A DNA stretch of 8,752 nucleotides, from the NCBI GenBank assembly GCA_023406965.1, contig JAEXTI010000168.1, positions 1 to 8,752 on the forward strand, written 5' to 3'. This DNA comes from Chloroflexota bacterium (GTDB taxonomy: Bacteria; Chloroflexota; Anaerolineae; Anaerolineales; Anaerolineaceae). This document shows, in pieces, positions 1,336 to 7,979 of this stretch. Below the pieces are notes generated by a model, which was given only the letters and a program-made list of their open reading frames with translations, made no database searches and was not told the origin of the DNA. The position numbers and the translations under genes were made by a program. Numbering within the stretch: the first letter of the stretch is position 1; each line of letters begins with the position of its first letter.

Positions 1336-1410
1336 CGGGGCGTGGCTCAGTCCGGATAGAGTGCACGGTTCGGGTCCGTGAGGTCGGCGGTTCGAATCCG
1401 CCCGCCCCGA
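1336..1410 (+). tRNA. tRNA-Pro (anticodon CGG)
   Basis: A full cloverleaf of 75 nt can be folded by eye. The acceptor stem is CGGGGCG (1336-1342) with CGCCCCG (1403-1409) and the discriminator is A1410. The D stem is GCTC/GAGT, with one G-T pair. The anticodon stem is CACGG/CCGTG around the loop TTCGGGT, with anticodon CGG at 1371-1373. The T arm is GGCGG-TTCGAAT-CCGCC. The C1-G72 pair, A73 and G37 are hallmarks of bacterial tRNA-Pro. The CCA end is not encoded: the discriminator is followed by CAA, so CCA must be added enzymatically. It decodes CCG proline codons. Confidence 0.95.
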
Positions 1411-1561
1411 CAAAAAGCCTTCAAACGAGGGCTTTTTTGATTCGTGTCGGCGGGTTCTCCCATCGAGGGACGCGGAATCCGCCCGCCCCGACACTACAAG
1501 AAGCTTTCAAGCGAGGGCTTTTTTGATTCGTGCCGGCGGGTTCTCCCATCGAGGGATGCTG
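1395..1561 (+). repeat. Tandem duplication of the tRNA 3' end plus terminator
   Basis: Two units follow each other: 1395-1475 (81 nt) and 1476-1561 (86 nt). Both contain, in order, AATCCGCCCGCCCCGACA (the 3' T arm, acceptor strand and discriminator of the tRNA), the terminator region ending CGAGGGCTTTTTTGATTCGTG, and CGGCGGGTTCTCCCATCGAG. They differ by a few substitutions and a 5-nt insertion in the second terminator arm, which weakens that hairpin. Within each unit GGCGGGTTC faces a downstream complement (GAATCCGCC at 1475-1483, GAACCCGCC at 1582-1590), so larger hairpins are also possible. The second unit encodes no tRNA 5' half and is not a gene. Confidence 0.85.
1412..1438 (+). terminator. 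Intrinsic terminator of tRNA-Pro
   Basis: AAAAAGCCTTC (1412-1422) pairs with GAGGGCTTTTT (1427-1437) around an AAAC loop, with one G-U pair, and ends in a run of six T. It begins one base after the tRNA discriminator position plus C. A diverged copy lies 86 nt downstream. Confidence 0.85.
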
Positions 1562-4154: not shown

Positions 4155-5639
4155 ATGAATAAGGTTGTCATCATTGGATCGGGAATGGGCGGCCTGGCTA
4201 CTGCATTGCGGCTGGCGCATCATGGTTTTGGGGTGACGGTTGTGGAGAAGCAGTCTCGTCCAGGCGGGAGAAGCACCATCCTCGAGCAGGAAGGTTTTCG
4301 GGTGGATGTGGGGCCAACCATTTTGGTGATGAAAGATACCCTCGAGGATACTTACCGCGCCATTGGCCAGGACTTGAACCAGCGCATTCAGTTCACGCAG
4401 TTGGATCCCAACTATCGAATTTATTATCACGACCAGACTCATTTGGATTTATATAACAACATGGCCCAACTGGCGATGGAGGTGGAGCGCGTGTCGCCGG
4501 GGTCGGCGGAGCGATTGTTCCGTTTCATCGGCGAAGGGGCCAAGAAGTTTGAATTGGGCATGGATTTTGTCGATCGGAACTTTGACCGCATCACCGACCT
4601 GGCCAACCCGGTGGCGCTGACGCGGCTGCTTTCGACCGGGGCGCATGAAAACATGTACCGGCAGGTGGCGGATTTCTTCAAGCATGATGATAAGCTGACC
4701 AAGGCATTTTCGTTTCATTCGATGTTTTTGGGGCTGTCGCCATTTGAAGCGCTGGCTATGTACAGCCTGATCACATATGCCGATCTGGCGCTGGGGATGT
4801 GGTATCCGCACGGTGGGTTGTACCGGATTGTGGAAGACATGGTGGAACTGGCAAAGGGGATGGGGGTTGAGTTCCGCATGAAGGCTCCCGTGGCTGAGAT
4901 TTTGATCGAGTCGGGGCGCACGCGGGGCGTTCGCCTGGAAAGCGGCGAGGAGATTGCGGCGGATTTGGTCATTTCCAACGCCGACTTGCCTTATACCTAC
5001 CAGAAGCTCATTCCCGCGCGCCACCGCAAGACCTATACCGATCAACGGTTGAGTAAGATGAAGTATGGCTGCTCGGGCTACCTGTTGTTCCTGGGCGTGA
5101 ACAAGACCTATACCCACTTGCGGCACCAGGGGTTGTACTTCTCAGAAGATTACCAGGCCAATTTGGATGCAATCTTCAAGTACAAAGTTTTGCCGGAGGA
5201 TCCTTCCTTCCACTTGAACGTGCCGACCATGACCGACCCCAGCCTGGCGCCGGAAGGGCACAGCCTGGTGTATGTTTTGGCGCCCATGCCAAACCTGACG
5301 GCCAATATCGACTGGAAAGTGGCGGGACCGCAACTGCGCGAAACATTGCTTTCGAAGCTTGAAAAGGTGGTGGATCCCGACTTGCGCAAGCATATTGTGT
5401 GGGAGAGCACTTACAGCCCGGAAGATTACCTGACGGATTTCAACGCTGTGCATGGCACCGCCTTTGGTTCGTTGTCACATGGGTTCTTCCAGTCTTCCTA
5501 TTTCCGACCGCATAATGTGGCCCGGGATATTCGGGGGTTGTATTTTGTTGGGCAAGGCACCTATCCGGGGATTGGGATGCCGATGGTGCATTTATCGGCG
5601 AAGCTGGTTGCAGAAAGGATCTTGAAAGAATGGAAGTAA
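4155..5639 (+). CDS. crtI: Phytoene desaturase CrtI
   Basis: A 494-aa FAD-dependent carotenoid desaturase that introduces double bonds into phytoene on the way to neurosporene or lycopene; the number of desaturations cannot be read from sequence. The N terminus has the dinucleotide-binding GSGMGG (8-13), the ribose-binding acidic residue Glu31 and RPGGR (35-39). The middle shows the family pattern FSFHSMFLGLSPFEALAMYS and MWYPHGG. The C-terminal FAD motif is GLYFVGQGTYPGIGMPMV (461-478) then HLSAKLVAERI; most bacterial CrtI have a GTHPGxGxPG-like form here, so Tyr and Met are variants. The start follows GGGAGGA (4141-4147) by 7 nt. It is the first gene of the operon and overlaps crtB by 10 nt. 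Confidence 0.93.
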   Translation: MNKVVIIGSGMGGLATALRLAHHGFGVTVVEKQSRPGGRSTILEQEGFRVDVGPTILVMKDTLEDTYRAIGQDLNQRIQFTQLDPNYRIYYHDQTHLDLYNNMAQLAMEVERVSPGSAERLFRFIGEGAKKFELGMDFVDRNFDRITDLANPVALTRLLSTGAHENMYRQVADFFKHDDKLTKAFSFHSMFLGLSPFEALAMYSLITYADLALGMWYPHGGLYRIVEDMVELAKGMGVEFRMKAPVAEILIESGRTRGVRLESGEEIAADLVISNADLPYTYQKLIPARHRKTYTDQRLSKMKYGCSGYLLFLGVNKTYTHLRHQGLYFSEDYQANLDAIFKYKVLPEDPSFHLNVPTMTDPSLAPEGHSLVYVLAPMPNLTANIDWKVAGPQLRETLLSKLEKVVDPDLRKHIVWESTYSPEDYLTDFNAVHGTAFGSLSHGFFQSSYFRPHNVARDIRGLYFVGQGTYPGIGMPMVHLSAKLVAERILKEWK

Positions 5640-6541
5640 GCAACACGGGTGTCAAGATGGCTGGTTTGGATTTTGTGGATCAAACCCTGAAGGATGATTA
5701 TTTGCATTGCCTATCCATTATGAGCGGGGCAAGCAAGAACTATTCTTTTGCCAGCCGGTTTTTGCCCCCCGAAAAATTGCCGCACGTTGGCGCGCTGTAC
5801 GCCTTTCTGCGCGTGGGTGATGATCGGGTGGACGTGTCGCATAACGGGTTCCACTCGCCGCTGGAGGCGATTGAAGATTGGGAGCGAAGCTACTGGCATG
5901 CCTTTGAGGTGCGAGCCAGCCCCGACCATGTGCTGCGGGCTTATCTCAATACGGCAGCCCGTTTTGAGATCCCGCCGCAGCTCATGGCGGCCTATTTTAA
6001 GGCCATGAAAGCCGATTTGACGGTGACGCGCTTCGAGACCTTCGCCGATTTGCTGGAGTATATGGAAGGCAGCGCCATGACCGTGGGGCGGGCGATGACC
6101 CATATCATGGGCATTGTCCCCGGGTTGACAATGGAAGAAGTACTGCCTCATGCGGATGCGCTGGCTATTGCCATGCAGCTCTCCAATTTTTGGCGGGACG
6201 TGGCTTACGATTGGTCGATTGGACGGGTGTATATCCCACAAGAAGACCTGCGCCGCTTTGGAGTGAGCGAAGAGGATATCGCTGGGCAGCGCATGACGCC
6301 GCAATTTGCCGAGCTGATGAAATTCGAAATCGACCGCACCGAGGCGTATTACCGGAAGGCGCGTTTGGGGGTTCCGATGCTGGCGTCGGGAAGGTGGGGC
6401 GTGCAAAGCGCACTGGAAATCTACCGGGCGATTAATACCTGTATTCGACGCCGGGGGTATGGTGTTTTTGGGCCGCGCGCCGGCGCAAACAAAGTGGAAA
6501 AATCACTCCTGGCGGCGAAGGCATGGTGGGTGGCGCGGTGA
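5630..6541 (+). CDS. crtB: Phytoene synthase CrtB
   Basis: A 303-aa squalene/phytoene synthase family enzyme condensing two geranylgeranyl diphosphates to phytoene. Both Mg-diphosphate-binding Asp motifs are intact: DDRVD (64-68), within LYAFLRVGDD, and DVAYD (190-194), within QLSNFWRDVAYDWSIGRVYIP. The active-site-flanking YSFASRFLP (38-46) is also present. The ATG at 5630 lies inside the end of crtI (the stop is 5637-5639) and has AAAGGA about 10 nt upstream. An ATG at 5657 is a possible later start, with a poorer upstream site, and would remove nine residues. Translational coupling to crtI is likely. No geranylgeranyl diphosphate synthase gene is present in this window, so the precursor enzyme must be encoded elsewhere. 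Confidence 0.94.
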   Translation: MEVSNTGVKMAGLDFVDQTLKDDYLHCLSIMSGASKNYSFASRFLPPEKLPHVGALYAFLRVGDDRVDVSHNGFHSPLEAIEDWERSYWHAFEVRASPDHVLRAYLNTAARFEIPPQLMAAYFKAMKADLTVTRFETFADLLEYMEGSAMTVGRAMTHIMGIVPGLTMEEVLPHADALAIAMQLSNFWRDVAYDWSIGRVYIPQEDLRRFGVSEEDIAGQRMTPQFAELMKFEIDRTEAYYRKARLGVPMLASGRWGVQSALEIYRAINTCIRRRGYGVFGPRAGANKVEKSLLAAKAWWVAR

Positions 6542-7374
6542 AGTGGATGAAAACCTTAACGGGGAGATTGATCAACGCCTGGAACTGGCTGGTTCCGGCG
6601 CATGCGAGAGCTTTGCGTTGGGCCTGGGCGGGAATGGTGGCGGTGTGGGTCGTTACCATGTTGCTCACACCTATCCTGATTTTTGGGATTGGAGACCATT
6701 TGTTTCCAGCGATTTCAACCGTGACGGTGCTGCTGCAGTTGGCTGCCAGCTTGCTGGCGCTGCGCATGGGCTATGGGCTGCGGCAGGTGGGCATGATGGT
6801 CGTTGTTTCGGCTGTACTGACCTACAGCGTTGAATTGTTGGGCTCCAAAACCGGGTTTCCTTTTGGACCTTATCATTACACCGATGCATTGAAACCGCAC
6901 CTGTTTGGCGTGCCCATGCTCATTCCCCTGGCGTGGCTGATGATGCTGCCGGCGTCCTGGGGCGTGGCTTCACTGATTGCCGGAGAGAAGCCGTCCAAGT
7001 GGGTCTACGCAGGGTTATCCGGTTTGGTTTTCACCGCCTGGGACCTGTACCTGGACCCGCAGATGGTGTTGAAGGGGCTGTGGGTGTGGCACGAGCCCAG
7101 CGGTTACTTCGGCATTCCGTGGAGTAATTACCTGGGCTGGTGGGCGACAGCGTCCCTGCTGACATTGATTCTGCTTGAACTGAGGTTACTGCCGATCAAT
7201 GCGCCGGATCATTCCTGTGCGCGAAGACCGCTGCTGGTGATTTACTCCATCACCTGGGTGTTTCAGGTGGTGGCGTTGGGCGTGTTTTGGGAACAGCCCG
7301 GCCCGGCATTGGCGGGTTTTGCCGGAATGGGCGTTTTTGCCCTGTGGGCGTGGCGCAAGGCGTTGATGAAATGA
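6523..7374 (+). CDS. cruF: Carotenoid 1,2-hydratase CruF (DUF422 membrane protein)
   Basis: A 283-aa polytopic membrane protein of the CruF/bisanhydrobacterioruberin-hydratase family. It adds water to the C-1,2 double bond of an acyclic (psi) carotenoid end, giving a tertiary hydroxyl. Family signatures in order are ELLGSKTGFPFGPYHYT (104-120), GVPMLIPLAWLMM (129-141), TAWDLYLDPQMV (171-182) and YFGIPWSNYLGWW (195-207), between hydrophobic helices. The start is uncertain: the ATG at 6523 overlaps crtB by 19 nt, a GTG at 6538 would give the common GTGA stop-start overlap, and an ATG at 6547 follows GGTGA. All give the same core protein. Its substrate would be the CrtI product made by the two upstream genes. 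In cyanobacteria CruF pairs with the glycosyltransferase CruG, which matches the family-2 glycosyltransferase two genes downstream. Confidence 0.9.
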   Translation: MVGGAVKWMKTLTGRLINAWNWLVPAHARALRWAWAGMVAVWVVTMLLTPILIFGIGDHLFPAISTVTVLLQLAASLLALRMGYGLRQVGMMVVVSAVLTYSVELLGSKTGFPFGPYHYTDALKPHLFGVPMLIPLAWLMMLPASWGVASLIAGEKPSKWVYAGLSGLVFTAWDLYLDPQMVLKGLWVWHEPSGYFGIPWSNYLGWWATASLLTLILLELRLLPINAPDHSCARRPLLVIYSITWVFQVVALGVFWEQPGPALAGFAGMGVFALWAWRKALMK

Positions 7375-7979
7375 GTATGTGGCTGTGGACGGCGTTGGGT
7401 TTTTTGGCCGGGTCACTGCCCTTTTCGGTGTGGGTGGGGCGGGTGGCGGGCGGGGGCGACATCCGCAAGGTGGGGGATGGCAACCCCGGCTCGATGAACG
7501 TGGGCCGGAAGCTGGGCTGGCGCTGGTTCCTCATCGCCATGCTGCTGGACGCGATCAAGGGATTCATCCCGGTGGGATTCGCGTACTTTCGGGGAGGGAT
7601 GGACGGGTGGCAACTGGTGCTCATCGTGCTGGCCCCGGTGCTGGGGCACGCGTTTTCGCCCTGGCTGAAGTTTCGCGGGGGCAAGGCCGTTGCCGTTACC
7701 TTTGGGGTATGGTTTGGCTTGATCTTGTGGAATGCAGCCATTATTTTTGGCGTGTTCTTGCTTTTTATGTACCGCACGGTGAAGGTGAGCGGATGGGCGT
7801 TGATGCTGGCCTTTGGGCTGTTTGGGATTGTCGTGGGAATCATTTATTTTCCCAGCCACCCGCAGTGGGCGGTCATTTGGGTTGGGAATGCGCTGATTTT
7901 GGGAATCAAGCACTGGGATGATCTGCGCCAGCCGCCCGGGCTGCGTCCCTGGCTGGCGAGGTTGTTGGGGCGATTATGA
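7371..7979 (+). CDS. PlsY-family membrane acyltransferase with altered motifs
   Basis: A 202-aa integral membrane protein of the PlsY (acyl-phosphate:glycerol-3-phosphate acyltransferase) family, normal in length and topology. The N terminus MSMWLWTALGFLAGSLPF and the block DIRKVGDGNPGSMNVGR (30-46) match motif 1, normally GSGNxGATNxxR. LGHAFSPWLKFRGGKAVAV (91-109) matches motif 2, normally FKGGKG. KHWDDL (180-185) matches motif 3, normally RHRENI. Arg46 and His181 are kept, but the motif-1 Ser is Asp36, the GGKG Gly is Ala106, and the motif-3 Glu and Asn are Asp183 and Asp184. The ATG at 7371 overlaps the cruF stop (ATGA), and the next gene overlaps its own stop the same way. An upstream in-frame TTG would add 28 residues lying over cruF and is rejected. 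It could be plain phospholipid PlsY; the context and substitutions favour a specialised acyltransferase (inference). Confidence 0.85.
   Translation: MSMWLWTALGFLAGSLPFSVWVGRVAGGGDIRKVGDGNPGSMNVGRKLGWRWFLIAMLLDAIKGFIPVGFAYFRGGMDGWQLVLIVLAPVLGHAFSPWLKFRGGKAVAVTFGVWFGLILWNAAIIFGVFLLFMYRTVKVSGWALMLAFGLFGIVVGIIYFPSHPQWAVIWVGNALILGIKHWDDLRQPPGLRPWLARLLGRL

Follow-up and report, generated by a model that had tools for sequence, protein, structure and literature searches.

The question raised by this locus is why a gene of the PlsY family should lie among carotenoid genes, and which acceptor its product would acylate. The window (the whole stretch of DNA that was analysed, 8,752 nucleotides in length) encodes the PlsY-like protein together with a carotenoid hydratase and a glycosyltransferase, and its features are as follows.

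4155..5639, forward strand: CrtI-type phytoene desaturase family protein (TIGR02734, 506 bits)
5630..6541, forward strand: squalene/phytoene synthase family protein in the CrtB position of the operon (PF00494, 218 bits)
6523..7374, forward strand: CruF-type carotenoid hydratase (PF04240, 142 bits; TIGR03460 CruF, 99.7 bits, below the cut-off of 154.7)
7371..7979, forward strand: PlsY-like acyltransferase of the D36/A106/D184 clade (PF02660, 129 bits; TIGR00023, 106 bits; AF2 pLDDT 94.3; TM 0.81 to 5xj6)
7476-7478, forward strand: GAT codon of Asp36, replacing the phosphate-clamp Ser35 in Aquifex numbering (codon and alignment; clamp according to passages of PMC5700162)
7686-7688, forward strand: GCC codon of Ala106, replacing Gly105 of the phosphate-hole loop (codon and alignment; loop according to passages of PMC5700162)
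7920-7922, forward strand: GAT codon of Asp184, replacing the phosphate-clamp Asn180 (codon and alignment; N180D data from passages of PMC5700162)
7976..8752, forward strand, running past the window end: GT2 glycosyltransferase, CruG/HpnB-like (PF00535, 104 bits; HpnB 163 and CruG 151 bits, both below cut-off)

Gene order and the Pfam matches agree with the original prediction, which had placed the gene in a carotenoid operon between the hydratase and the glycosyltransferase. Four-base ATGA overlaps flank the PlsY-like gene on both sides, joining it to the CruF-type and GT2 genes. The best NCBIfam match of the 5630..6541 protein is HpnC (172 bits) and phytoene synthase scores 144 bits, all of these under cut-off. 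A tRNA-Pro (cgg) is present at window positions 1336-1411. Literature on plsY and carotenoids gave, among the matches listed, no earlier description of a PlsY in a carotenoid operon.

The PlsY-like frame is open from the ATG at 7371 to the TGA at 7979 and encodes an intact protein of 202 amino acids. Its match to PF02660 lies far above the cut-off of 24.1 bits and is the sole Pfam match at an E value of 0.001, a PF01553 domain being absent, while its score against the PlsY equivalog TIGR00023 (106.3 bits) misses the cut-off of 137.2. The AlphaFold2 model (mean pLDDT 94.3) has a TM score of about 0.81 to 5xj6, the G3P-bound Aquifex PlsY. The protein therefore shares with PlsY (acyl-phosphate:glycerol-3-phosphate acyltransferase; PF02660, TIGR00023; structures 5xj5-5xj9) the fold, the GGK of the phosphate-hole loop, R46, H93 and H181, but differs from it in S36D, G106A, N184D and Met42, in scoring below the TIGR00023 cut-off and in having a GT2 as genomic partner. 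Motif 1 reads GDGNPGSMNVGR, motif 2 FRGGKA and motif 3 KHWDD. Both claims made earlier about these motifs hold, namely that residues have been replaced through clear codons without a frameshift and that the equivalents of Arg46 and His181 are kept; K105 and H93 are kept as well.

Passages of PMC5700162 describe how Aquifex PlsY grips the phosphate of G3P with Ser35, Arg45, Lys104 and Asn180, and binds the acyl-phosphate through His92 and the backbone amides of residues 104-107. They term the G3P pocket highly invariable; among 7,288 homologs Asp takes the place of Ser35 in 2.7% and of Asn180 in 1.7%, and the N180D mutant loses more than 95% of its activity towards G3P (PMC5700162). The window protein does not have this clamp, since Asp36, Arg46, Lys105 and Asp184 stand at the four positions. 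Met42 is found where Aquifex PlsY has Thr41, described there as contacting the acyl-phosphate. The acyl-phosphate site would thus be retained, with the G3P clamp swapped for one carrying two acidic residues, and a kept donor site beside a changed acceptor site makes acyl-phosphate the likely donor. Two acids opposite two kept bases would make a poor site for phosphate and one suited to sugar hydroxyls. However, R46 and K105 are both bases of the phosphate clamp, and their presence counts against a changed acceptor. Together with H181 and the PlsY fold, these residues would be expected of an ordinary, perhaps slow, G3P acyltransferase that serves phospholipid synthesis with a rearranged clamp. 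We regard such an enzyme as quite improbable, and the activity lost by N180D is one point against it.

The window substitutions, judged by alignment, are far beyond chance, because Asp36 is found in 120 of 121 aligned proteins (the query and the best 120 of 3121 matches), the remaining one having a gap. Ala106 is present in 120 of the 121 proteins, and 116 have Asp or Glu184. To widen the comparison, genome contigs were searched; the best 80 of 322 loci were taken and 70 further loci were added. The 153 PF02660-type frames correspond to 122 distinct rows, split at an author-set 190 bits into 82 rows of the clade and 40 others. D36 is found in 81/82 clade rows, P39, W114 and W142 in all 82, and A106 in 81/82, the last count being biased, like those for A94 and P97, because the locus search patterns include these three columns, with D36, P39, W114 and W142 lying outside them. 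D or E184 is present in 75/82 and Arg or Lys46 in 78/82, and the donor side is equally uniform (H93 and GG in 82/82, K105 in 81/82). Among the 40 other PF02660 copies the corresponding counts are S36 33/40, G106 40/40, N184 29/40, P39 0/40, W114 1/40 and W142 2/40. The same residues were read in a class sample, an even draw of 150 genomes from the class to which G003 belongs, a genome itself picked as a carrier; this sample was used because in a phylum-wide one only 11 of 151 genomes had a match at E 1e-40. Thirty loci were examined, from 30 of its 34 carrier genomes, which hold 35 places, and four of these loci (in G003, G019, G020 and G030) are shared with the selected set. D36 and P39 are present in 30/30 of them, A106 in 27/30, W142 in 26/30 and D or E184 in 24/30.

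A quick tree with SH-aLRT support, calculated with columns 36, 39, 106, 142 and 184 removed and showing several long branches among the 40 others, places the 82 on one side of a branch and the 40 on the other (SH-aLRT 99). The original prediction had to reckon with the same substitutions being widespread among ordinary PlsY proteins in the phylum; this is not borne out, since the D36/A106/D184 copies form a clade apart from the other copies. Its question whether cruF-adjacent copies form a clade sharing Asp36/Ala106/Asp184 is answered in part; such a clade exists but is wider than the cruF-adjacent copies. The nearest neighbours of the window protein in the tree (L001, L020, L027, L017 and L018; support 91) are all loci with carotenoid genes. 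Members of the clade come from MAGs assigned to Chloroflexota and to several other phyla; as the relatives are almost all MAGs, misbinning may account for the labels other than Chloroflexota. L139:2878-3735 (reverse strand), a long-branched PF02660 copy that falls outside the clade, has Glu at 36 and Asp at 184 and adjoins a GT2 gene. Position 140 (Ser in 27/42 cruF-adjacent copies and in 1/35 without a carotenoid gene seen nearby) was considered as an acceptor switch and set aside; no contact is claimed for it because Aquifex Ser142 aligns nearer to column 143.

These counts also bear on the idea that the protein is a decayed or non-catalytic PlsY copy serving as a membrane scaffold for the pathway. 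The window protein departs from PlsY at two clamp residues and at the position of Thr41, and a stop codon lies inside the clade match at 4/35 class-sample places, as might be expected of decay. However, the replacement residues are near-invariant, all 82 clade genes are open across 191-210 residues, and Pro39, Trp114 and Trp142 are newly conserved (82 against 0, 1 and 2 of the 40 others, with W142 at the lower frequency given above in the class sample), which makes a scaffold very improbable. A change of acceptor rather than decay is well supported by inference, because the new residues are near-invariant in the paralog clade, the relatives carry another PF02660 copy, and N180D alone costs Aquifex PlsY nearly all of its activity.

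At least two PF02660 genes were found in 30/30 genomes of relatives searched, and PlsX in 29/30. Residues of the other copies were read at 71 of 73 PF02660 places, the two left out both being in G028. This genome (that of L070, titled Dehalococcoidia UBA6808) has seven PF02660 genes. Another copy keeps Ser36, Arg46 and Asn184 in 28/30 genomes, and one more gene, in G026, is cut before Ser36. The full clamp is present in a copy of 15/30 genomes (that of G026 seen only from after Ser36). In 14/30 only the clamp Lys is missing from the other copy, with Ser, Arg and Asn retained, and in G020 neither type was seen. A division of labour, in which the clade protein would take a share of G3P acylation, is therefore conceivable in the genomes of the latter two kinds. 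Against it stand the 15 genomes with a complete-clamp copy and the fact that all 14 Lys-less copies read SGR in motif 1, so the basic residue may have moved in them. The SGR copies represent a further PF02660 type, with GGAG or GGVG as motif 2, in which the clamp Lys is lost and Asn38 is changed to Arg (L088, L091, L092, L106, L125, L126, L127, L130, L133, L135, L137, L138, L140 and L147).

The genomic partner also argues against an ordinary G3P acyltransferase. A GT2 gene scoring above 180 bits adjoins 24/30 class-sample clade loci against 1/40 of the other copies, the one being L139 (Fisher p=4e-12; the limits of 180 bits, fixed after the values were seen, 250 bp and 400 bp are author-set). 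In the selected set, 73/82 clade genes have a window-type GT2 on the same strand no more than 250 bp away, two of these matches being weak (63 and 100 bits). Over 69 pairs, the distances among PlsY-like proteins correlate with those among their GT2 partners (r=0.59, 0/2000 permutations), which shared descent alone could also give. No such GT2 adjoins 9/82 selected and 6/30 class-sample genes, three of these 15 ending at or near a contig end. Among the neighbours at L055 and L040 a glycosyltransferase was not found by Pfam, and in four of the six class-sample loci (L170, L175, L177 and L180) the neighbours include a lycopene-cyclase-type gene of PF18916 (28 to 48 bits, cut-off 27). As the glycosyltransferase is the commonest partner, its product is the most reasonable candidate for the acceptor. 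We therefore lean, by a small balance of probability, towards the PlsY-like protein being an acyl-phosphate-dependent acyltransferase that would esterify the glycoside which the partner GT2 produces, in this operon a carotenoid glycoside. It is an evenly poised possibility that the clade comprises the first PlsY-fold enzymes to acylate an acceptor other than G3P by acyl-phosphate, forming with GT2 a portable glycolipid-capping pair whose aglycone would come from the surrounding genes (a carotenoid in the window).

How closely the clade is tied to carotenoids can be judged from the genes around it. CruF lies directly upstream of 42/82 clade genes, in a set selected by similarity and including the window. 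Across the 150 class-sample genomes the clade is present in 34, PF04240 in 44 and PF00494 above cut-off in 51. PF00494 co-occurs with the clade (21/34 carriers against 30/116 non-carriers, p=0.0002), 13 of the 21 having both on one contig within 12 kb. Co-occurrence with PF04240 is not significant across the same sample (14/34 carriers, p=0.09), and the two genes are adjacent in only 7/34 carriers. Neither family is present in 13/34 carriers, where the MAGs may be incomplete. Among 13 genomes chosen as having no cruF beside the clade gene, 11 are without PF04240 and 11 without PF00494; these absences too may stem from incompleteness, the relatives being almost all MAGs. A carotenoid-only reading of the clade was rejected on these counts, and the 13/34 carriers without either family make the clade wider than carotenoids. 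The earlier proposal of a changed acceptor with acylation of a carotenoid glycoside or a precursor thus stands by inference as regards the acceptor, and as regards carotenoids for the window operon and its nearest relatives, but not as what defines the clade. A carotenoid acceptor is likely for the window operon and is not a defining trait of the clade.

In the pathway that we favour, PlsX would make the acyl-phosphate donor and the GT2 would first attach a sugar to the CruF-hydrated carotenoid. The PlsY-like protein would then move a fatty acyl group from acyl-phosphate to a sugar hydroxyl, and the product would be a fatty-acid ester of the carotenoid glycoside. Where a carrier lacks carotenoid genes, the PlsY-like and GT2 pair would act on another glycolipid. 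The reverse order seems unlikely; in it, acylation, again by acyl-phosphate and not of G3P, would come first, on the hydroxylated lipid or on a small polyol, and glycosylation by the GT2 would follow. In its favour, gene content does not reveal which enzyme acts first, the PlsY-like gene lies between cruF and the GT2 gene, and the pair exists without carotenoid genes. However, tertiary 1'-hydroxyls are poor acceptors, and the carotenoid esters described for the phylum, in the passages of the sources cited below, are glycoside or glucoside esters.

Passages of PMC4155588, PMC3368417 and PMC2615216 report or propose carotenoid glycoside esters in Chloroflexus, Herpetosiphon and Thermomicrobium, genera whose genome papers name CruD as a carotenoid glycoside acyltransferase. 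PMC4155588 and PMC3368417 credit the esters of the phylum to CruD, with which the PlsY-like protein would have its product class, an acylated carotenoid glycoside, in common; PMC2615216 assigns them alternatively to an acyltransferase domain fused to a hydroxylase. In 17/17 cruF-bearing genomes, one of which has only 5.8 kb of contig upstream, the 10 kb to either side of the clade gene contain no PF01553 match. CruD, which we take to be a member of PF01553, would thus be of a different protein family from the PlsY-like protein, and the missing PF01553 fits a replacement of CruD. In Anaerolineae-type genomes that have no PF01553 gene by the cluster, the PlsY-like protein would be a candidate for the acylation of carotenoid glycosides. 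Staphyloxanthin synthesis, to judge from its description in a passage of PMC8502411, is comparable in that the glycosyltransferase CrtQ and the acyltransferase CrtO likewise yield an acylated sugar on a carotenoid. If the favoured reading is true, a natural clade with a rebuilt G3P pocket would illustrate how the acceptor of an acyl-phosphate enzyme can shift, and proteins now named PlsY, several of them among the best 120 of 3121 matches, would be misnamed.

Two further arrangements were seen around clade genes. A MerR-type regulator family lies upstream of the clade gene in nine loci, with and without cruF (L007, L009, L024, L032, L033, L034, L042, L056 and L078); its representative at L007:6172-7479 has MerR and B12-binding domains. 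At L035:8044-11135, a locus from which cruF is absent, consecutive genes on a single strand encode Heliorhodopsin, Staygreen, the PlsY-like protein and GT2.
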